DNA of 64,000 bases, from positions 99,083 through 163,082 of the forward strand of contig POWB01000009.1 in NCBI GenBank assembly GCA_010912705.1, given 5' to 3'. A program made the position numbers and the translations under genes. This document shows, piece by piece, positions 20 to 30,273 of this stretch (its first letter is position 1; every line of letters begins with the position of its first letter). Below the pieces are notes generated by a model. It made no database searches, was not told the origin of the DNA, and was given only the letters and a program-made list of their open reading frames with translations. Source of the DNA: Halochromatium sp. (lineage in GTDB: Bacteria > Pseudomonadota > Gammaproteobacteria > Chromatiales > Chromatiaceae).

Positions 20-526
20 ATGGACCTGCGTATCTTGCCACTGGGCAAGGAGGATGACCGCAAGTCCTTCCGTTGCGGTGAGCGATCACTCGACGAGTAT
101 CTCCATCGTTACGCCGGGCAGGACATCAGACGCCGAGTCAATCGTGTCTTCGTGGCGGTTGCGGCTGATACACCAAGGCAGATCGTCGCCTTCTATAGTC
201 TCAGCGCGGGCAGCCTTGATGCCGAGGCATTGCCCGACGCCTATCGTCGCCGTTTACCTCGCTATCCGGTCCCTGTGGTCTTACTCGGGCGTTTGGCCGT
301 CGCGGTGTTCCACCAAGGTCAAGGAATCGGTGCTATTTTGCTCACCGATGCCCTGCGGCGCGTCGCAGGTGCCAGTCATCTGATGGCGGTCTATGCGGTC
401 GTCGTCGACGCACTGGATGATCGGGCGGCCGATTTCTATCGCAAGTTTGGCTTCATCGCATTACCCAGCCGACCCAGAACGCTGTTCCTGCCGCTTGACT
501 CGTTTCTCGAGTTGGGCGGAAGCTAA
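20..526 (+). CDS. GNAT-family N-acetyltransferase, TacT-like toxin type
   Basis: 168 aa; 'DEYLHRYA...QDIRRRVNRVFVAV..IVAFYSLSAGSL...VLLGRLAV...GQGIGAILL..A' matches the GNAT toxin pattern; partner antitoxin would lie upstream of the window. Confidence 0.75.
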   Translation: MDLRILPLGKEDDRKSFRCGERSLDEYLHRYAGQDIRRRVNRVFVAVAADTPRQIVAFYSLSAGSLDAEALPDAYRRRLPRYPVPVVLLGRLAVAVFHQGQGIGAILLTDALRRVAGASHLMAVYAVVVDALDDRAADFYRKFGFIALPSRPRTLFLPLDSFLELGGS

Positions 527-571: not shown

Positions 572-2716
572 ATGTCGGACCTAGATAAAGAACTAATGAG
601 TATTGCGGATGCGGATAATCTGCGTGATTCCGCAAGAGTTGACTATCTTAAAAAGCAATGGGGGATAAGCGATTTACGTGTTCAGGGGCGGCTTAAAAAA
701 ATGGGGGATCTCTGGTGGTTGACCGACGTCCGATCAGAAAACGGCACACTTCTCCATTATCCTTTTTCAGACTTGAGCCGGCCGCTGGGTCATGAAAGGC
801 CAGGAGTATTTGTCGGACCCGAATCCGTTATCCCTATTGGTCTTTCGGAGCCAGATCTGCTAGTCAGTACGATACTGGAAATTGCAAGCAAAGCTGAGCG
901 AGAAAAACAGAATAATCCGTTATTAGTTCAGGCAAATCCACGTCTGCTTAAGTTGCTGACTTCAATATCGTCGGAGTATTTCTTCTACAATGAAGATGGC
1001 ATCTCAGTTCCAGAAACAGTGCGCCAGCATTACATTGCGCAATGTCGGAAGGAGGCGGAAGCGGAACTTGCCAAGCTGAACGACGAACTTTCGCAAGGTA
1101 GGCGCCGATCTGACGCCCTTACAGCTGAGGTCATTGAAACACAGCAAAAAATCAAGCAGGAGGAGGCGTCCCTGCAAGAGGCCGAGGCGCACGCGATCAT
1201 GGCGCAAGAGGAACTGCAAGCCATTAAGGAGGAGCTAGCTGAAGCACGAAAGCAACGAGATCGCGAGCGTGGGCGCATTGAGAGCCAAGCGGATGAGTTG
1301 CGCGCCTATGTCAAGGCGAGAATTGCCCCCTTACGCCGCCTAGAACTCGTCACTCAGGCCCAATTGGACAGCCTGTTCCCGGGTGACAACGTTGCTGGTC
1401 AGCGTGAAGACAATGACTGGCCCCTGTTCGATGGCAAGACGACTCCGATCGATCATATCCAACGCTATCTCTTCGGCAAGGGCATTGGCTACCCCTTGGA
1501 TCTGCTCGAGAACTTTCATGCATTGCTGGGCACCGGAGACCTGATCATCCTGTCCGGCCTATCCGGTTCCGGCAAGACGAATCTGGTCAAGTCTTACGCT
1601 GAAGCCACGGGCAATGAGCATCGGATTATTCCGGTCAAGCCTAACTGGACCAGCGCCGAGGATCTGCTCGGCTTTCATAACCCGCTGCAGCGCGCCTATG
1701 CGCCGACGCCGTTTCTCGAGGCCCTCTTCGACGCTCAACGCGATCCAGAACGTCTCTATATCATCTGTCTCGACGAGATGAACCTAGCACGAGTCGAATA
1801 TTACTTCGCAGACTTCTTGTCTCGCCTTGAAGATCGAAAGGGTCCGAGCATACAGCTCTATCCCGACGATGAGTTGGGCCATGTCAAAACCGAGCTACTG
1901 GTGCTGTTGGAGACCTTAGGCGGATTGAATGTGGATGAGAATTCAGCAACCTTACAATCGCTGCTCGCAGATGGCGGAACAATGACCGCGCTGGCGCAGC
2001 GGCTGGGGCTTGGCGATAGGGAGTCCTTCCCCAAGCTGCATGGGCGTATCCGTCGCATGCTGACAGGTGCGCTGACGGTGCATCCAACGCTATCAATCCC
2101 AGCCAATGTCCGCTTTGTCGGCGCCATCAACATGGACGACACGACCCACTACCTGTCACCCAAGGTGCTCGACCGAGCCTATGTGCTTCAGTTTCAGAGT
2201 CCGCTAGATTATTGGCGGCAGGTTGATGGGAAGCTCGGCGATGCGGAAAAACCACGCGATGGCATTCGAATCCCAGCTTCCGCATTCTATCCAAGGTGTG
2301 ACTACCCGGATTATCAGCCAACCGATCCGCTGGTCAAGAAGTTGACATCCTATGTCAGCGAATTCCTCAAACCGCTTGGCATCGAACTCGGTATGCGACC
2401 CTTGCGGCAGGCGTTGCTCTATCAGGACCGATTGCGCGAGGTGTTCAAGGGAGACAGCCTAGAGCTGCTTGCCCTGAACCATTTGCTACGCCAAAAAGTA
2501 CTGCCGCGGTTCTCGTTTGACGGGAAGCAGCGCGCGCGAGGACGGGGTGAGCAGACCTGCGATGCGGTTGTGCGGGCCTTTCGGGATCGTTTGGTGGAGG
2601 ATTTAAGTCCGCTGCAGAGCAAGGACATTTCACCGTCTGGACGGGCAACCGACGAGATCAATTCGATGATCGAGCGCGCGGTTGAAAGTGATGGTGTCTA
2701 TAACTACTGGTCCTGA
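572..2716 (+). CDS. McrB-family AAA+ ATPase with coiled-coil N-terminal region
   Basis: Walker A GLSGSGKTNLVKSYA, Walker B IICLDEMNLARVEYYFADFLSRLE, sensor region RFVGAINMDDTTHYLSPKVLDRA; heptad-rich Glu/Lys/Ala segment around aa 155-265. Confidence 0.85.
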   Translation: MSDLDKELMSIADADNLRDSARVDYLKKQWGISDLRVQGRLKKMGDLWWLTDVRSENGTLLHYPFSDLSRPLGHERPGVFVGPESVIPIGLSEPDLLVSTILEIASKAEREKQNNPLLVQANPRLLKLLTSISSEYFFYNEDGISVPETVRQHYIAQCRKEAEAELAKLNDELSQGRRRSDALTAEVIETQQKIKQEEASLQEAEAHAIMAQEELQAIKEELAEARKQRDRERGRIESQADELRAYVKARIAPLRRLELVTQAQLDSLFPGDNVAGQREDNDWPLFDGKTTPIDHIQRYLFGKGIGYPLDLLENFHALLGTGDLIILSGLSGSGKTNLVKSYAEATGNEHRIIPVKPNWTSAEDLLGFHNPLQRAYAPTPFLEALFDAQRDPERLYIICLDEMNLARVEYYFADFLSRLEDRKGPSIQLYPDDELGHVKTELLVLLETLGGLNVDENSATLQSLLADGGTMTALAQRLGLGDRESFPKLHGRIRRMLTGALTVHPTLSIPANVRFVGAINMDDTTHYLSPKVLDRAYVLQFQSPLDYWRQVDGKLGDAEKPRDGIRIPASAFYPRCDYPDYQPTDPLVKKLTSYVSEFLKPLGIELGMRPLRQALLYQDRLREVFKGDSLELLALNHLLRQKVLPRFSFDGKQRARGRGEQTCDAVVRAFRDRLVEDLSPLQSKDISPSGRATDEINSMIERAVESDGVYNYWS

Positions 2717-4405
2717 CGATGATCGAACCACCCTGTGAGCTTCGGATCATCCGTGTCTCTTGGGCGCGCAAAGACGAGAGCACCGATGTCAAAACCGCTC
2801 AGCAGCCGATCAGGCTAGAACAGGGCGTTGATGGATGGGTCGCGGAGGTTCCGGCCTATCCCAAGGTCGAAGGAGGGGTCTATGGCCAACTGGCCGTGGC
2901 GCTCCCTGAAGGTGCAGCCGAGCCCAGTCTGCTTCTGGCTAATGATGACAGCTTCCCGTTGACGGTGGTTAAAGCGCCTGACGGACGCGAGTGGTGGATT
3001 GAGAAGGGCAAATGGAAGAAAACAAAGTACGCAAAATACCACGATGCCCCCTTGTGCAGACACGTAGGCGACGCACGGTTGCGAGTGGGCGGCGAAGTGA
3101 TAAGACTGCGGATCGCACCAGCGGGATTCACTGGTGAAGACTTTGAGCTGTTGCTGGATGAGTTCCGCAACGGCGCCTGGCAACTGATCCTTGAGCCATT
3201 GAGTCCAACCCGCAGCACCGATTGGCGTGGCGACGGTGGTATCGACCCTGCATTCTTGGCCGCAGTCTCTGAGTTTGTCCGCTATGTCGGGCGCGCACTC
3301 GATCAGCCGCATCGGGAACTGCGGGAAGTCCGGCAGTTGCAGCGCCTTGAGCGGGTGCGGCCTCATGTTGGTACCTTCCGCGAGTTGGCTGTGCGTGGTT
3401 TGCCTCGGCTAGTGAGCGGTCGTGGGCATGCTCCGAGTTTCAACACACCTGAGAACCGTCGACTGCTGTGGATGTGTATTCGACTGCGCCGGATGTTGAG
3501 CGGGCTGTTGGCTGGCTCAAAGGCGTCTACTCTCGAACTGCGTCGCCGAGCTGAGGGAGCCGAGGAGCGGGCCGCCTATCTTCAGGATTCGCAAGGCAAG
3601 GTACGCGTCGACCAGGCAAGATTAGCCCGGCTGATTGAGGAGCGCGAGAATCAACTCATCGCATACCAACAGACAGTCAGCCGATTACTCAGTGATCGGC
3701 TCTCTGATACCCAGCTAACCTTTTTTGATGTTCCACATCCGAGCCCGGATGCAGACAGGGGAAGTGCCGGATTTTGGTTTGATGGATGGAGCGAAGATGG
3801 TAGTGCTGTACGATTTCGCTTGAACTTTCACGTCGGCCTTAAAACGCTGAAGATGGTCTTCGATAAGCGCTATTGCTATCGACTGGTTGGAAATTTTGAT
3901 GTCGTACTCAGCGGCATCAGTCAAAGCGGTCGTCCATGGACCATATGGAGAATAGCTCGTTTAACCGAAATTCTTCCTATGAGGGAGCAAGATCCTACGT
4001 TGGAAAAGGCGCTTCGTTCAGAAATCGATATGCTGAAAGGCCATCGACCCTCCCAAGGGAATACCGATTTTTGGAAACCACTTAACAAAGCAGACGCTGA
4101 TGAACAACGTAGGGATCTAATTGAGGCGCGTGCCTCCGCTGATCGTTTGCGAGTCGCCAGTGAACTCTGGTCACGTATCGCGAGCCAGCTTGCACCATTG
4201 GCTGCTCAGCTTTCGTCACTAGAGGCTAGAGCACAAAAAATGGGAATTAAAGAGGCGCGTCAAGCCACTGTCATCGGGTCGATGACCTGGGTGATGAACC
4301 CTGACTACCGAGGGGCACTAGGAGCGTACCGTAATGCGCAGGCTAAAGCAGATTTGAAGGCATCGCAATTAGAGGGCCTGCTCAGGCTGGAAGATCTTGG
4401 TGTGA

Positions 4406-5941
4406 CTCGATCTTCGAGTTTTTTTCGGTTGACAAATGAGGGAAAATGATAGCCATTAACTAACGAGGAGCTGCCGCCATCTTTTCTGCTGCCCTGCCGT
4501 TCATTGCTGACTATCTCGACGACTTAGACGCGGCCCTGAAGGCGCAAGAGCCGGGGCGGGGGTTGACCCGCAGCCAGCGCCGGTGGCTGACGTTCTGTCT
4601 GATGGGTCTGTTGCTGACCAATACGGTGAGCTGGGCGCACTTTGAGCGCAGCGGTTTGCGCGGGTACCGACACAGTGCCTTATCGTGGATGTTTCGCCAC
4701 ACCAAGATCCTCTGGGAGGGGCTGTGGCAGGCCAGTGTCAGCGTGGTGCTCGCCCAGTATGACCTAAAAGAGGGGGTGCTGGTCGTCGATGACAGCGACC
4801 ATCGTCGCGCCAAGCGCACCACGCGCATTCACCGGGCCCACAAGATCTACGATAAGAAGACGGGTGGCTATTTCAACGGCCAGGCGTTGGTCTTTCTGGT
4901 GCTGGTCACACCACAGATCACCGTGCCAGTTGGCTTTCGTTTTGCCGCCCCGGATCCACGCCAGGTGGCGTGGCGGGCCGAAGAGAAGCGGCTGAAGCGC
5001 CTCAAGGTTCCCAAGGCCGAGCGCCCGCCGCGTCCGGCCCCGGATGCCGCCTATCCGAGCAAGCTCCAGTTAGCGCTGGAGTTGATCGCCTCCTTTCGCC
5101 AAGCCCATGCGCAGGTGCGCATCCGCGCGGTGCTTGCCGATGCGCTCTACGGCACGCAGGCGTTCATGGATCAGGCGAGTCGCCTGTGCGACGACGCTCA
5201 GACGGTCAGCCAGTTGCGCACCAACCAAAAGGTGCGTTTCCGCGGCAAGGAGCGCTCGCTGAAGGACTTCTTCCGCGCTTATCCGGGCGTCAGTCAACGC
5301 ATCCGCGTGCGCGGCGGCGAGGAGATCGAGGTCATCGTCAGCAGCGCCCGGGTGCACGTTTGCGCCCATAACGCGAAGCGCTTCGTCATCGCCCTCCGTT
5401 ATCCTAACGAGACCGAATACCGTTATCTGGTCGCCACCGATTTGAGCTGGCGCACGTTGGACATCGTCCAATGCTATACCCTGCGATGGCTTGTCGAGGT
5501 GTTTCTGGAGGACTGGAAGCTCAATGAAGGGTGGGGGCCGTTGGCCAAACAGCCTGACGAAGAGGGATCAAGCCGCAGCCTGATCCTGAGTCTGCTGCTC
5601 GACCATGCCCTCATCCTTCACCCCGAGCAGCAAGCCCGCCTGAGCCACCAGGCGCCCGCGTGCACCGTGGGCAGCCTGCGACAGCGTTGCCAGGGGGAGG
5701 CGTTGGTGGACCTGTTCCGACGGGTGTTGGAGGCCGAGGATCCCGCCGCCCAATTCGAGCAGCTCGCCGAAGCGATCAAGGCGGTGTTTCCCCTCGCCCC
5801 CTCGAGCAAGCACATGAGCGGACGAGATCTGGGTCGGCAACAGCCGACACCCGCCTTGCGCTACCGCGCCGCGGAGGTAAGCGCTTGCGCCTGACCACAT
5901 AGTTGGCTCAAAAGTCAAGACCTAAAAACTCGAAGATCGAG
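4406..5941 (+). mobile_element. IS4-superfamily insertion sequence, 1536 bp
   Basis: Terminal inverted repeats CTCGATCTTCGAGTTTTT / AAAAACTCGAAGATCGAG; 5-bp duplication TGTGA at 4401-4405 and 5942-5946. Confidence 0.9.
4563..5894 (+). CDS. IS4-superfamily DDE transposase
   Basis: VLVVDDSDH, VLADALYG and YTLRWLVEVFLEDWKL motifs; the frame is open upstream to about 4479, so the true start may be earlier. Confidence 0.85.
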   Translation: MTRSQRRWLTFCLMGLLLTNTVSWAHFERSGLRGYRHSALSWMFRHTKILWEGLWQASVSVVLAQYDLKEGVLVVDDSDHRRAKRTTRIHRAHKIYDKKTGGYFNGQALVFLVLVTPQITVPVGFRFAAPDPRQVAWRAEEKRLKRLKVPKAERPPRPAPDAAYPSKLQLALELIASFRQAHAQVRIRAVLADALYGTQAFMDQASRLCDDAQTVSQLRTNQKVRFRGKERSLKDFFRAYPGVSQRIRVRGGEEIEVIVSSARVHVCAHNAKRFVIALRYPNETEYRYLVATDLSWRTLDIVQCYTLRWLVEVFLEDWKLNEGWGPLAKQPDEEGSSRSLILSLLLDHALILHPEQQARLSHQAPACTVGSLRQRCQGEALVDLFRRVLEAEDPAAQFEQLAEAIKAVFPLAPSSKHMSGRDLGRQQPTPALRYRAAEVSACA

Positions 5942-6922
5942 TGTGATTGATCTGCCAATGATCTACGAGCGCTGGTGCCTGCTAAGACTCGTTGCGACGC
6001 TGCGCACACATTTCCATCTGTCACCGCCTAGCGATTTGCAGGGTCGGCTGCTCGAAAGCGTGACTGGGGAGAAGGCGTTGTCGGTCAGGTTCGAGGGACC
6101 GGCCCTCGGGCGCGATGTGCTGTTGGAGTATCAGCCGAGGCTGCAGAGGGACGGGGTTCCGGAGCAGCAGCGACCGAATCCGGATTTCATGTTGACTGTA
6201 CTGGCTCGGGATCATGATGCTCCGATACCTGGCACACCGCGTTCCCGACTGGTGCTTGATGCCAAGTGCAAGCCCTTTCTCGCGTTGGGGGAAGCAGGCT
6301 CAGGCCTCAGTTTGGTCGAAGAACTGGACGAATTGATCGGTAGGAAGAAGTACCATGAGCCTGATGACCATCGGGTTTTCGTGCTACACCCTGGTTCGGG
6401 ATCAGATGCGGCACAGCGAGAGGCCAGCTATTGTCATCTCGGCGGGAGCCATCTGGTGTCGACGAAAGAGGAACGGAAGCCGTGGGACGACGAGGGCTAT
6501 CCTGACCACCGATACGGGTTTGTGCTGCTGCGGCCTGGTGTCGCAGATCCGCTGATTCGGTTGATCCTGATGCACCTGTATCTTGGGCTAGACGACAGTA
6601 TTGGCGCTTACGATAATCGGCGTCCTGCCTGGACGCGGATCTGCCCTGCATGCGGGAGTGCTGAATTGACAGCAGAAGCGCCTGCTGGCACCCCGATGTC
6701 TGTTCATCCTGAACGGACAGATTGGTGTGTTGGTTGTGGTCGAATGCTGGTTTGGAATTATAGTGGCGGCTGCGGCACGCATCTGTTCAAGCTTGGCGGC
6801 CACTGGACCTTTCACGACACGCATCCACTGAATCCCTACAACATTCGCTGCCCGCATTGCGGAGACTTCATGAAGATGCGCGAATCGACACCTGAACCAG
6901 ATGACTCAGTTGAAACCGACGA

Positions 6923-8884
6923 TTGGGGAGAGTTGGACTGTCCGTTCTGGCTCGTACCCTGTTCATCGATGAATCGGGGGATTTTGCGCAAAGCCCGCGA
7001 TCCCTCGTCAGCGGTGTGCTGTGTCTGGGCAAGCCAGGGGCTGCTGAGAAACGGCTGGCGGCCGCTTTGGAGCCGGTCAGGCGCCGTTATCGGATCGGCC
7101 CAATTGCCAACCTGCATCTGACCGCATTGCGGCGGCGCTCACATCAGGAGGCGATGGAGATCGCCCGTGCGGTTCTCGATGCGGCCTATGACTCTGGCGT
7201 GTTGATCGCCACATTAGCAGTGGAGAATGCCCGCGGCGATGGCCTGACCAATAGTGAGCGGACCTACCGGCTGATGCTGCTGGATCTGTTGGCGCTGGCG
7301 GATGCGCTGCTGCCGGAGGACCGCGAGGATTCACAGCTTGAGATCATTGTTGCGCGACGGACGCAGGATGGCGTGCGGATGTCCACGCGGGAGGATCTCT
7401 TGGCGGATGTGGTTGAGCGCATCACGGATGCGGTTGAGGTGGGGCTTGCCGCCCGTGGCCTGCTGACTCGGCTCGATGCCCGTCACCTGCGCATCTGGCC
7501 TGCAGCCGACTCTGCGGGGCTCGCGGTCGCAGATTTTATCGCCAATCTCACCTATAACCGACATCGGCCGGAGAGCGGCGCACTATTCAGCGCGCTTGTG
7601 GAGCAGGACCGGTTGCGGTTATTCGAGGGCCTTGGACGTTACGCCGAGCGACGCGCGCGGATCAGTGAGCGCGACGGCGACTTGGCCGTTGCGCTTTCGC
7701 GATGGGCGCTGCTGGATTGTGAAGCGGATGCGGATTGCGAGTCTCGCCGTGCCGAAGCGCTTAGTCGTGTGTTGCGCCGCGCGATCCGCAGCGGAGTGAC
7801 GGGACCAATGGCCACGGTGGAGGCAGTGCTGGAGCGCCTTTGGCGCGCCCATAAGACGTCCCAGGATTATTCACCGCTGGCCGCCGCACTGGGGCGGATC
7901 GAGTCCGTTTTGCTGACCGCGAGCGGCCCACCGACGTTGTTGTATCGACTGCATAATCTGATGCATCAGGTTGCGAATCAGATGGGTGATCTGCCGACCG
8001 CAGAGCGGATGATTGCCGCGCAGTCTGTGTTGGCGACGAGGGTGATGGCCGATCCGAGTCTGTTTCACTTGATTCTGGATGCTCAGGTTCTCCGCGCGTT
8101 GACTGAGGAATTGCGCCTCGACTTTGCCTCATCAGAGCGTTATGCACGAGAGTATTTGAGGCTTGTAGAACAGTATGGAACCGTTTGGGAACTGTTGGAT
8201 GGGGTTCCGGGAAAGACCGATTTCGTTGGCTCGCGACTCTGGCTCAAGGCGCGCATGACAATGATTCGGGGGCTGTTGCTGGGTGGTGCGCCGCCGCAAC
8301 TAGACGAGGCGGGTACGCTGTTGCAAGGGATCTCATCCAATGATCTGAATGACGCCGACCACGCGCGTCTGCTTGGCTATCGGGTCTGGCACGGCATACG
8401 TGCAGGGCGGCCTACTGAAGTGTTGACGTTGGCTGCAACGCTGATCGAGCGTTACGCTGACCCTTTCGCGGCGCAGCACGCAGCCCGTGCTGCAGCGGAT
8501 GTCGCCCTACTGACGGATGTGCAATCGAAGGCTCAACTGAGACGGATGCTGTCGGTGCTGCGAGACCGGGCCGAGTCCGTCTCCGGCCATCCAGGCGAAC
8601 TGCTATGGCGCGATGTAGCGGTGCTGGAGCAACGTGTCGGCAGTGGCATGGCAGTAGCTCGAAAGGCATTCGCACAGGCACTTGCAATCAGTTCGCGCTT
8701 GCCAGAAAGTCCGGTTAATGCCTGGAATCGACGTGTGATCGAGGTCCACCAGGCTGCTTTGTGCGCAGGCTCGGAGCCGTCCGTGCTGCTGCCGACTGCA
8801 GCGCAGCGACTGGCTGCGCGGGCTCTTGACCTGGCGGATCAATTCGGTTCTGTCATGGCGTTTCGTCGCATCAGCCCTTACTGA
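6923..8884 (+). CDS. DUF3800-domain protein with C-terminal helical-repeat (TPR-like) region
   Basis: 'TLFIDESGDFA' and 'AGLAVADFIANLTYNRHRPES' motifs typical of DUF3800; about 400 aa Ala/Leu/Arg-rich helical C-terminus; TTG start in the track. Confidence 0.65.
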   Translation: MGRVGLSVLARTLFIDESGDFAQSPRSLVSGVLCLGKPGAAEKRLAAALEPVRRRYRIGPIANLHLTALRRRSHQEAMEIARAVLDAAYDSGVLIATLAVENARGDGLTNSERTYRLMLLDLLALADALLPEDREDSQLEIIVARRTQDGVRMSTREDLLADVVERITDAVEVGLAARGLLTRLDARHLRIWPAADSAGLAVADFIANLTYNRHRPESGALFSALVEQDRLRLFEGLGRYAERRARISERDGDLAVALSRWALLDCEADADCESRRAEALSRVLRRAIRSGVTGPMATVEAVLERLWRAHKTSQDYSPLAAALGRIESVLLTASGPPTLLYRLHNLMHQVANQMGDLPTAERMIAAQSVLATRVMADPSLFHLILDAQVLRALTEELRLDFASSERYAREYLRLVEQYGTVWELLDGVPGKTDFVGSRLWLKARMTMIRGLLLGGAPPQLDEAGTLLQGISSNDLNDADHARLLGYRVWHGIRAGRPTEVLTLAATLIERYADPFAAQHAARAAADVALLTDVQSKAQLRRMLSVLRDRAESVSGHPGELLWRDVAVLEQRVGSGMAVARKAFAQALAISSRLPESPVNAWNRRVIEVHQAALCAGSEPSVLLPTAAQRLAARALDLADQFGSVMAFRRISPY

Positions 8885-8951: not shown

Positions 8952-9362
8952 ATGAAACAGACGCTTGACCTCCTCGTCATCGGCGCCGGCTGGGCCGGCC
9001 TCTATGCGGCTAAATATGCATCAGCGGGCCGGTGACGGAGTTCACCGGTGCCGTCGTCCATACCGCCGAGCTCAAACATCCGCTCGATCTGGGCGTTGGC
9101 GCGGGCGATCACGTCATCGTCTACGGCGGCGGCGAGACCGCGACCGATGTTGTGCACGACCTTGCGACTGGAACGGCGGCCGAGATCACCTGGGCGATCC
9201 GCGGCGGGCAGCACTTCTTCCGCAAGGCGCCGCTCCGGCGCGGCCAGCCGCCAGGTGTCTACGATCGGCACGACATGACGCTTGACGAGTACTCATCCGG
9301 TGCCATCGGTGTCATGACCTCGGCGAAGAATGCCGCGCCGGGGATGCGCCATCTCGGCAATC
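8952..9362 (+). pseudogene. Flavin-containing monooxygenase fragment (copy A): N-terminus fused to an internal segment
   Basis: MKQTLDLLVIGAGWAGLYAAKY followed by internal 'VTEFTGAVVHTAELKHPLDLGVGAGDHVIVYGGGETATDVVHDL'; central region missing. Confidence 0.75.
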
Positions 9363-9502
9363 TCGAAACCTCAGGTAGTCTCTTCTCTTACCAGGGCCAC
9401 GGTGTTGCCGAGTGGCTACCCGTAACGCTGAACTCATGCATATTCTTCGTCGCATTCGCTATCGGGTTTTTCAGGTCAGGAAATGTTGCGAATGAGGTTT
9501 GC

Positions 9503-10045
9503 TCAACCCGGACGATCTGCTTCGGGTGACGCGTGTTCTGCGCGCGCTGCCCTGCCCATTGAGGCAGTGACCTTTGCCGACAGGAACAACAACAGCGGGT
9601 TATCTGGTGCTGATTCAAAGCCCAGGCGCCGGTAATAATTTGCCGCCTGTTCATCCAGTGCGTCGACAAACAAACCAATCCCACCGGCTTCGGCGTAGAT
9701 GCGCTGCACGCGCGTCATGGCATCGACCAGCAGCAGTTCGCCCAGACCCTTGCGCTGATACTGACTGTCGACAGCCAAGCGCCCCAGCCGTACACCGGGG
9801 ATGCGACCTGGTAACTTTTTGCGCCAGGCTTCGGGCAGATGCCGGTTGTCGAGTTCTGCCAGCGTTAGCGCGTAATAGCCGCAAATGCGCTCTGGCGCTT
9901 CCTCGCGAACGGCGACGAAGGTCTTCGACAGCCCTTTGTCCTGATGCTGACGGGCGACCTGCCACAGCCAGCTGTTCAGTTCCTGTCGGCCGCAGTCGAA
10001 GCCCTGCCGATCATGACTCCCAGTTAAAGCTTGTACCTGTATCAT
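9503..10045 (-). CDS. GNAT-family toxin of a type II TA module
   Basis: 'FDCGRQELNSWLWQVARQHQDKGLSKTFVAV...GYYALTLAEL...VRLGRLAVDSQYQRKGLGELLL..A'; follows a DUF1778 antitoxin gene. Confidence 0.85.
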   Translation of the reverse strand: MIQVQALTGSHDRQGFDCGRQELNSWLWQVARQHQDKGLSKTFVAVREEAPERICGYYALTLAELDNRHLPEAWRKKLPGRIPGVRLGRLAVDSQYQRKGLGELLLVDAMTRVQRIYAEAGGIGLFVDALDEQAANYYRRLGFESAPDNPLLLFLSAKVTASMGRAARAEHASPEADRPG

Positions 10046-10322
10046 CGCGTTTGGCTGTCTGGTAACGGGTCAGGGCGGCTTTCAACGTGGCATTGGGCTC
10101 AGGCGGGTTGTCCATCAGGTCGAGCAACCAGTTCCAGTCGCGCGGCGAGAGGCGGATGACCTCTTGGCGCTCGATGACCTCCTGAGCCTCTTTCAGCGCA
10201 GCTTGTACCAGAAACTGATTGACCGTGGCGCCGGTCAGTTCGGCGGCATGGCACAAGGTTTCATAAACGTCGTGGGGCACGCGTGCCCCGATGCGGTCTT
10301 GTTTAGTGGTGGCGGTTCGCAT
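10011..10322 (-). CDS. DUF1778 (RHH) antitoxin
   Basis: 'DRIGARVPHDVYETLCHAAELTGATVNQFLVQAALKEAQEVIE'; overlaps the toxin gene start. Confidence 0.85.
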   Translation of the reverse strand: MRTATTKQDRIGARVPHDVYETLCHAAELTGATVNQFLVQAALKEAQEVIERQEVIRLSPRDWNWLLDLMDNPPEPNATLKAALTRYQTAKRDDTGTSFNWES

Positions 10323-10363
10323 GTTCCATGCTCCAGCGAGTGCTTGAGCGCCTAGTCTATCAC

Positions 10364-10382
10364 TGGCGCCAATTTGGCGCCA
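10364..10382. promoter_or_regulatory. Tandem palindromes upstream of the antitoxin, candidate autoregulatory operator
   Basis: TGGCGCCA-AT-TTGGCGCCAA about 40 bp upstream of the antitoxin start. Confidence 0.35.
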
Positions 10383-10389
10383 AAAAAAC

Positions 10390-10832
10390 GGAGGGATTGT
10401 GGCAGGTCGACACCGAAGACGGGCGCAGATTCACCGCCAAACGGCTTGCCGTTGCGACCGGTGCCCATCAGCGCCGCCGGCCAATCAGCGGGCCGGTGAC
10501 GGAGTTCACCGGCACCGTCGTCCATACCGCCGAGCTCAAGCATCCGCTCGATCTAGGCGTCGGGGCGGGCGATCACGTCATCGTCTACGGCGGCGGCGAG
10601 ACCGCGGCCGATGTCGTCCACGACCTTGCGACTGGAACGGCGGCCAAGATCACCTGGGCGATCCACGGCGGGCAGCACTTCTTTCGCAAGGCGCCGCTCC
10701 GGCGTGGCCGCGGCCAGCCGCCAAGTGCCTACGATCGGCACGACATGGCGCTTGATGAGTATTCGTCCGGCGCCATCGGCGTCATGACCTCGGCGAAGAA
10801 TGCCGTGCCGGGGATGCGTCATCTCGGAAATC
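10390..10832 (+). pseudogene. Flavin-containing monooxygenase fragment (copy B)
   Basis: 'GLWQVDTEDGRRFTAKRLAVATGAHQ...VTEFTGTVVHTAELKHPLDLGVGAGDHVIVYGGGETAADVV'; near-identical to copy A over 10484-10832. Confidence 0.75.
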
Positions 10833-10849
10833 CGACACAAGAAAAAGAT

Positions 10850-11026
10850 ATCTCGCGCAGAGACGCAAAGGCGCAGAGAAGAAGAGAAGAAGAGAAGAAG
10901 AGAAGAAGATGAAGAACAAGAGAAGCGCACTGGGAACATCGAGCAAGCTCTTTCTTCCTTTGCGCCTCTGCGTCTCTGCGCGAGCCTCTTCTTGCCACGT
11001 CACAACCTCACGCGACCTCATGTCGA
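10850..11026 (+). repeat. Dispersed hairpin-forming repeat, copy 1
   Basis: TCTCGCGCAGAGACGCAAAGGCGCAGAG ... CTTTGCGCCTCTGCGTCTCTGCGCGAG arms around purine-rich GAAGAAGAGAAGA core; inverted copy at 30099-30255. Confidence 0.8.
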
Positions 11027-11190
11027 GGCCGTACCCTGTAGACTGAGTCTGGTTTCAGCGAGCGTATGCACCGGCTATCATCACGCTCTTGGCCGGGCAG
11101 CCGGGGTGCGATCGTTGTTGGTGCTGAGGTGGCCGTTCCAATCGGAACTGATCGATACTGATCGCTTATCTATAGAGGTGTTGGTTGGCA

Positions 11191-12147
11191 ATGAATTACG
11201 CAACGCGCAAGCGGGTTCTGGTGACCGGCGGCGCCGGCTTTGTTGGCTCACACCTCTGTGAGCGACTGCTGGCCGAGGGGCAGGATGTGCTCTGTGTCGA
11301 CAACTTCTTTACCGGCACCAAAGACAATATCGCCCACCTGCTCGCGAACCCCTATTTCGAGCTGCTGCGCCACGACGTCACCTTCCCGCTGTATCTGGAA
11401 GTCGACGAGATCTACAACCTCGCCTGTCCCGCCTCGCCGATCCACTATCAGTTCGATCCGGTGCAGACCACCAAGACCAGTGTGCACGGCGCGATCAATA
11501 TGCTCGGGCTCGCCAAGCGGGTAAAGGCGAAGATCCTGCAGGCCTCCACCAGCGAGGTCTACGGTGACCCGACTGTGCACCCACAGCCCGAGCACTACTG
11601 GGGTAACGTCAATCCGATTGGCCAGCGCGCCTGCTACGACGAGGGCAAGCGTTGCGCCGAAACCCTGTTCTTTGACTATCGACGCCAGCATGGGCTGGTT
11701 GTCAAGGTTGCGCGCATCTTCAACACCTACGGACCGCGGATGCATCCGAACGATGGTCGGGTGGTGTCGAACTTCATCATGCAGGCCCTGGAGAATCGGC
11801 CGATCACCCTCTACGGCGAGGGGACCCAGACCCGGTCGTTCTGCTATGTGGACGATCTCATCGACGGGCTGCTCCGGTTGATGAACAGCGCCGATGAGCT
11901 GGCTGGACCGGTGAATCTGGGCAATCCGCAAGAGTTCACGATGATCGAGCTGGCGCAAACGATTCTGGATCTGACCGGTTCACGCTCAACCCTGGTGCAT
12001 GCCCCGCTACCGCCTGATGATCCGCGGCAACGCCAGCCAGATATCGCGCTTGCACGCGAGCGGTTGGGTTGGGAGCCACGGGTGGCGCTGCACGAGGGGT
12101 TACAGTCCACCATCGCCTACTTCGAGCAGTTGCTCGGTCGGCGCTGA
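11191..12147 (+). CDS. UDP-glucuronic acid decarboxylase-like NAD-dependent epimerase
   Basis: [63 protein letters not shown]. Confidence 0.9.
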
Positions 12148-13916: not shown

Positions 13917-14447
13917 TCATTGCTCGCCGAAGCGAGCGATGAGCTGGGAGAAGTTGCAGGGCCGGGTGCGGCTGTCCAACTGCGGCTGCAGGATCTGCTC
14001 CCAAGCGGTGCGGCAGGCGCCGGTGGAGCCGGGCAGGCAGAACAGCAGGGTACCGTTGGCGATGCCGGCGACGGCGCGTGATTGCACGGTCGAGGCGCCG
14101 ATCTCTTGATAGGAGATCTGCCGGAACAGTTCGCCAAAGCCATCGATAGTCTTGTCGAACAGCGGGGCGATCGCCTCAGGCGTGCTGTCGCGACCGGTAA
14201 TGCCGGTGCCACCGGTGCTGATCACCACCTGCACCTCGGGGTCGGCGATCCAGCGCGAGAACAGCGCGCGGAGTTGGTAGACATCGTCTTTGCAGATCAC
14301 CTGATCGGCGAGCCGATGGCCGGCGGCGCTGAGTTGCTCGCGCAGATAGGTGCCGGAGGTATCGTTGTCGGCAGTGCGGCTGTCGGAGACCGTCGCCAGC
14401 GCGATCGGCAAGCACATGAAGGGGGCGTCGTTAGGGGTTCGGCTCAT
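13917..14447 (-). CDS. moaB: Molybdenum cofactor biosynthesis protein B
   Basis: [41 protein letters not shown]. Confidence 0.9.
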
Positions 14448-20678: not shown

Positions 20679-20872
20679 CCCTCTGTCCTGAACCTGAGAG
20701 TTTGCGTCGAGCAGCCTTGCCAGCCCGCTATCGGCGGGTGGACAGGCTGCTCTTCGCTGCCCCGTCGGTGGGCCACTGCCGTGGCTACTCTCCAGAGTTG
20801 GTGTTAATTCCCTCGGTCCTTTTGCCTGAGCGATTCCGGGCGGATGTTGCGCCTTCGGCGCCGGTGTTGGCG
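20679..20872 (-). promoter_or_regulatory. Tandem glycine riboswitch
   Basis: Minus strand shows two aptamer-like blocks: 'GAATCGCTCAGGCAAAAGGACCGAG' and 'ACTCTGGAGAG...CTCTCAGGTTCAGGACAGAGG', directly upstream of gcvT. Confidence 0.85.
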
Positions 20873-20992
20873 ATTGTTTGGTAATCGCTAGAACCGGTCT
20901 CTCCCGCGGGACTTCAAACCATTGCCAATCAATATAACCATCTCTTGCCGCAGTTCCAAGGTCGAATCGCGAAATTGCTCTTGCAGGTGATC

Positions 20993-30047: not shown

Positions 30048-30098
30048 CATTATAAATCAATTTCTTAGTTTCTGTTCGGGTGGTTTCGGGTGCGGTCC

Positions 30099-30255
30099 CG
30101 ACATGAGGTCGCGTAATGTTGTGACCTGGCAAGAAGAGGCTCGCGCAAAGGCGCAAAGGAAGAAAGAGCATTGCTCGATGCTCCCAGCGCGCTCATCTTC
30201 TTATCTTCTTCTCTTCTTATCTTCTTGTCTGCGCCTCTGCGCCTCTGCGCGAGAA
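30099..30255 (-). repeat. Dispersed hairpin-forming repeat, copy 2 (inverted relative to 10850-11026)
   Basis: Reverse complement reads CTCGCGCAGAGGCGCAGAGGCGCAGACAAGAAGATAAGAAGAG...TTTGCGCCTTTGCGCGAGCCTCTTCTTGCCAGGTCACAAC...GACCTCATGTCG. Confidence 0.8.
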
Positions 30256-30273
30256 ATCGTTTTCAACCATTGC

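Follow-up and report, generated by a model that had tools for sequence, protein, structure and literature searches.

Where a toxin–antitoxin (TA) module lies between repeated sequences, as at the present locus, the question is whether the repeats were made by the arrival of the module, whether they serve its mobility, or whether they have another origin. We addressed this question in a 64,000-nucleotide stretch of DNA from the purple sulfur bacterium Halochromatium sp. (the window), in which a minus-strand DUF1778/GNAT pair lies between two fragments (A, 9020-9362, and B, 10484-10832) of a flavin monooxygenase (FMO) gene. The fragments are direct repeats with 92% identity and a single 6-bp indel (blastn, 320 of 349 identities, 6 gap positions, E = 5 × 10−144; the next match within the window has an E value of at least 0.08, which is chance level), aligning in two ungapped blocks (9020-9245/10484-10709 at 94% and 9239-9362/10709-10832 at 91%) with a start-to-start spacing of 1464/1470 bp. 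Ungapped blocks, blastn and profile matches confirmed the first-pass annotation in its description of similar, same-orientation copies around a minus-strand TA. Only these 2 copies of the repeat segment, plus a 33-bp partial match, were present in the organism's own genome (a 4.19-Mb draft assembly of 43 contigs with 89.8% completeness). The observation was right, and the structure is larger than first described: it had been overlooked that a third, 5′ remnant of the gene lies beyond the window edge and that 2,344 bp are deleted right after B.

The gene is intact in one same-genus genome, that of Lamprobacter modestohalophilus DSM 25653 (G002), where it encodes an FMO-like protein (PF00743) of 589 aa and lies between IMP dehydrogenase (IMPDH) and UDP-sugar dehydratase, in the order IMPDH (minus strand), FMO, methyltransferase, membrane protein and UDP-sugar dehydratase (neighbour names are from sequence resemblance). 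This is the same locus as in our genome, in which the organism's own IMPDH is just left of the window (contig C43:97015-98523) and the right native neighbour, a UDP-sugar dehydratase/epimerase (11185-12147, plus strand), is 93% identical to its Lamprobacter counterpart. A and B align to the intact gene at 93% and 88%, respectively; the Lamprobacter gene is whole, whereas here it is represented by three fragments, none capable of making protein. The first-pass annotation had named, as evidence that would count against it, a strain with an intact monooxygenase and no duplication around this TA; Lamprobacter fits this only in part, having the intact gene and lacking this TA, but with its gene at the same locus.

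With the intact gene as the mapping reference (Lamprobacter sequence L019), copy A (F2) consists of the FMO 5′ end with its own ATG (8952-9019, plus strand; from 8965, 91% identity to L019 8858-8912) and the FMO middle (9020-9416, plus strand; 93.2% identity over 397 bp to L019 9286-9682). In total, L019 8845-8912 is joined to 9286-9682 across window positions 8952-9416, with 373 bp missing between; the 5′ reading frame reads MKQTLDLLVIGAGWAGLYAAKYASAGR and then stops, broken at 9019/9020 after 27 codons. The earlier view that A keeps the N-terminus and has lost the centre of the gene therefore stands, but its end at 9362 does not, as homology continues to 9416. Copy B (F3) is FMO middle only (10377-10832, plus strand; 87.9% identity to L019 9179-9628, with clear homology from ~10386); rather than at 10484, as first reported, its homology begins at ~10377-10386, immediately behind an operator-like region of the TA. 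After B, L019 9628 is joined to 11973 (junction 10832/10833), a 2,344-bp deletion that took away the 3′ end of FMO together with the two genes beyond it and that ends, on the right, within a dispersed repeat element present in many copies in the genome. This element (~230 bp, with CTCGCGCAGAGACGCAAAGGCGCAGAG inverted repeats; window 10833-11094, with a second copy at 30088-30264) matches 17 places in the genome with its left 50 bp, and copies at five other loci align over part of its length.

The third remnant, F1, is beside IMPDH (C43:98583-98742, or window ~−500 to −341), where the native promoter region of the FMO gene stands together with a degenerate 5′ end of that gene that has ATA as its start codon. 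F1 is only ~80 bp long, and its exact end is blurred by microhomology, ~11 bp at the junction being common to FMO and the flank of a neighbouring TA pair (TA1). The FMO 5′ end is thus present twice, in F1 and F2; the sequence upstream of F1 matches the native promoter, whereas that upstream of F2 does not. A search across the own genome for the missing FMO parts returned only copies of the dispersed repeat. Carriage of the FMO gene on plasmids was considered and rejected, with no close plasmid relative and 28-29% identity at best among the matches listed.

Between F1 and F2 is a ~9-kb block that holds a second GNAT/DUF1778 pair, an IS-interrupted candidate defence operon and a DUF3800 gene. 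The toxin of this pair (TA1; 20-526, plus strand; its DUF1778 antitoxin is just outside the window at C43 98806-99090) is 37% identical to the toxin between A and B, and the pair also adjoins IMPDH in G005, a different species of this genus, there without an FMO gene. The candidate defence operon (572-7121) was predicted by PADLOC from PDC-M26A (572-2716, plus strand) and PDC-M26B (2719-4449 and 5943-7121, plus strand), the latter split by a transposase open reading frame (4563-5894, PF13546), with E values of 8 × 10−168, 8 × 10−56 and 3 × 10−44 for the pieces. The last gene of the block on the right, which immediately precedes copy A, encodes a DUF3800 protein (6923-8884, plus strand; PF12686, E = 1.9 × 10−4); the idea that F2 travelled with this gene was rejected, the protein being present in just 1 other genome of 116.

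The module between A and B (TA2) comprises a GNAT acetyltransferase toxin of 180 aa (9503-10045, minus strand; PF13508, E = 9.5 × 10−10) and a DUF1778/TacA1-type antitoxin of 103 aa (10011-10322, minus strand; PF08681, E = 1.1 × 10−23, 83.4 bits against a cut-off of 21). The toxin matched the solved structures 6g96 (E = 1.7 × 10−27) and KacT 5zgn (E = 2.2 × 10−23) in a phmmer search; the antitoxin matched KacA 5zgn (E = 1.7 × 10−10). The antitoxin gene comes first and overlaps the toxin gene by 35 bp, an order and overlap shared with a pair on an Acidithiobacillus caldus plasmid. Upstream of the antitoxin is a promoter/operator-like region (10357-10384, minus strand), with a presumed promoter function, which aligns in three modules; its two TGGCGCCA palindromes, a putative operator, are both exact in the window and in the module of genome G064, and in A. 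caldus one of them is exact and the other carries a mismatch (TGGCGACA). Conservation with G064 (80% DNA identity) and the A. caldus plasmid runs from these palindromes (~10384) to about residue 160 of the toxin (~9563), and homologous toxins stop near residue 162. Past this conserved end, the toxin open reading frame runs on for ~20 residues that are absent from relatives. They are encoded by a filler (9417-9562) that separates copy A from the conserved part of the toxin gene and to which no relative aligned.

To judge from sequence, TA2 resembles known GNAT-DUF1778 modules: like TacAT, AtaRT and KacAT, it combines the two families, its antitoxin gene precedes and overlaps the toxin gene, and its proteins are similar to KacT/KacA and others of this type with solved structures; it differs in that its toxin open reading frame extends ~20 residues beyond those of its nearest relatives, into flanking DNA. 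Its genes look intact, and it is probably an ordinary GNAT-DUF1778 type II module. DUF1778-type antitoxins repress their own operons; in TA2, the antitoxin would bind the toxin and repress the operon, and free toxin would acetylate aminoacyl-tRNA, the activity described for toxins of the family (PMC9177977).

Whether the repeats date from the insertion of TA2, as first suggested, can be judged from how they differ. Over the 343 bp on which the silent-site test is based, 23 sites distinguish A from B, of which 15 fall at third codon positions, with 15 synonymous and 8 nonsynonymous differences (dS = 0.197, dN = 0.032, dN/dS = 0.16; silent excess, P = 6 × 10−5), and this dS approximates that between our genome and Lamprobacter for IMPDH (0.18) and the dehydratase (0.22). 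The silent-site bias and species-like dS therefore indicate that the copies diverged as parts of working genes and died later; A and B appear to be remnants of two gene versions with a divergence depth similar to that of the species pair. Adding a third sequence (C) and an outgroup (G009) gave nearly a star (4 sites linking A and C, 1 linking B and C, and 3 linking A and B), consistent with three lineages of similar depth. Insertion with target-site duplication predicts identical or neutrally drifting flanking copies, and we found 92% identity and a dN/dS of 0.16; recent duplication, or a long target-site duplication, was thus rejected as the default on silent-site divergence, and the proposal of a duplication made at TA insertion is unsupported.

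Identity along the region alternates between Lamprobacter-like and G005-like: the IMPDH side and the dehydratase are closer to Lamprobacter, TA1 is held in common with G005, and from ~13.7 kb on the sequence is closer to G005. This switching makes it likely that one FMO version was imported by gene transfer, the main alternative being an old tandem paralogue. In the part with mosaic ancestry from ~13,700 onward, a gene at 13,917-14,447 has a dS to Lamprobacter of 0.62, compared with 0.2 near the FMO locus.

The most probable explanation is an FMO locus of mosaic origin that has decayed, in which an ordinary TA stands between what is left of two versions of the gene, with the caveat that misassembly is possible in a draft of this kind (43 contigs, 89.8% complete). 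The ancestral order would be the one kept in Lamprobacter, from IMPDH through FMO, methyltransferase and membrane protein to UDP-sugar dehydratase. The FMO gene now exists as three pieces, F1 with the native promoter and a degenerate 5′ end, F2 with a second 5′ end and middle, and F3 with the middle, located on the native right side, of which F2 may stem from a second, already divergent version, acquired from a relative by gene transfer or retained as an old paralogue. Insertions would have added the ~9-kb block, with TA1 and the candidate defence operon, and the 0.96-kb TA2 stretch, and deletions (373 bp in F2, 2,344 bp after F3, and the remainder) would have trimmed both FMO versions, making the flanking repeats a by-product of two adjacent gene versions. 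The locus thus looks like the outcome of genome decay, with versions of a gene having become mixed at a single variable site, rather than a young mobile cassette.

A single insertion could instead have brought the TA and duplicated ~450-500 bp of FMO, either as a very long target duplication or because a circle that carried both the TA and a fragment of FMO was captured by single crossover. The outer limits of the copies fit this history, in that A ends at L019 9682 and B starts at 9179 (~500 bp of overlap, with the TA between), as does the position of B right behind the TA operator. However, near identity would be expected of a fresh copy and evenly spread changes of a dead one, whereas A and B are 8% different with a strong silent bias, and neither an integrase nor a resolvase gene is present in the 9417-10376 insert. 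The divergence objection would not apply to a circle with a foreign FMO allele, and we consider a single insertion unlikely overall. Rather unlikely, too, is a history that starts from two old tandem FMO paralogues, in which the TA took the place of the first gene's end and the second gene's start and later deletions trimmed the remainder. Two functional genes in the same order and orientation would account for the silent-site divergence, and other TAs in the genus do lie between tandem paralogues (ATPase genes and FlaG genes), but a pair of FMO genes was not found here in any of the relatives searched, and the upstream sequence of F2, unlike that of F1, departs from the native promoter. Against the favoured mosaic history, in turn, neither tandem whole FMO genes nor the ~9-kb block together with an intact FMO gene, either of which would be an intermediate, was found among strains and relatives.

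We assessed whether TA pairs are enriched between repeats more generally. Windows of 3.2 kb centred on a TA were set against further windows taken from the same surroundings (up to 20 kb), and direct repeats of at least 80 bp between flanks were scored. In the family outside the genus, repeats flanked 2 of 55 TA windows and 12 of 397 controls (P = 0.53); in the genus, with the present locus left out, they flanked 5 of 20 TA windows and 3 of 127 controls (P = 0.001; pooled family and genus, P = 0.013). These same-region controls superseded an earlier genus control (0 of 87) that was unmatched to TA loci. Two of the five genus cases represent a single locus shared by two species, and the repeats consist of ordinary copies of genes (ATPase, FlaG and HicAB, named by sequence resemblance). 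In both species, a GNAT/DUF1778 pair lies between two ATPase gene copies that are ~90-93% identical over 565-570 bp (L095/L182 in our genome, C42 ~121 kb; L099/L183 in Lamprobacter). The general selection for repeat-flanked modules put forward in the first-pass annotation thus finds no support family-wide, and what stands is an excess in the genus, a weak lead in one genus rather than a general rule, and one that is silent on excision.

The idea behind that annotation was reasonable, since arrays and islands can be stabilised by TAs located on chromosomes (PMC7167474). Like the TAs of the Vibrio superintegron and SXT mosAT (PMC7167474), the present module is in a variable chromosomal region, here beside a candidate defence operon; unlike them, it comes with no identified mobility genes, attachment sites or stability phenotype. 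Our literature search found no paper combining GNAT-DUF1778 TAs with flanking direct repeats. A related and highly doubtful notion is that TAs lock duplications: collapse between copies would lose the antitoxin and be punished, such that duplicates around TAs would outlast others, leaving several in the genus (FMO, ATPase, FlaG and HicAB). If true, the protection of duplications from collapse would be a testable consequence of chromosomal addiction, for which the genus excess is a small lead and against whose generality the family result speaks. Least probable is an active addiction cassette, excised by A/B recombination as a ~1.46-kb circle and maintained by post-segregational killing, for which the length and identity of the repeats, intact-looking TA genes and the genus excess (two of its five cases being orthologues) can be cited, but no excised form or circle was seen, nor any variant in the relatives, a family-wide excess is lacking, and the silent-site divergence is long, which implies that the repeats were neither homogenised nor collapsed. 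The geometry permitting homologous recombination, as first noted, is real; deletion or circularisation is without evidence here, and excision and selection for repeat-flanked addiction modules are possible but unsupported.

The locus offers a readable example of the step-by-step loss of an accessory gene at a variable site of the chromosome where TA modules have meanwhile gathered. Its third remnant and silent-site bias indicate that repeats flanking a TA need not be insertion duplications, and advise caution with similar claims. Known RNA elements were absent near TA2 and, within the window, were confined to a tRNA and a glycine riboswitch located elsewhere, the aptamer of the latter (20804-20916, minus strand) scoring above the Rfam gathering score.
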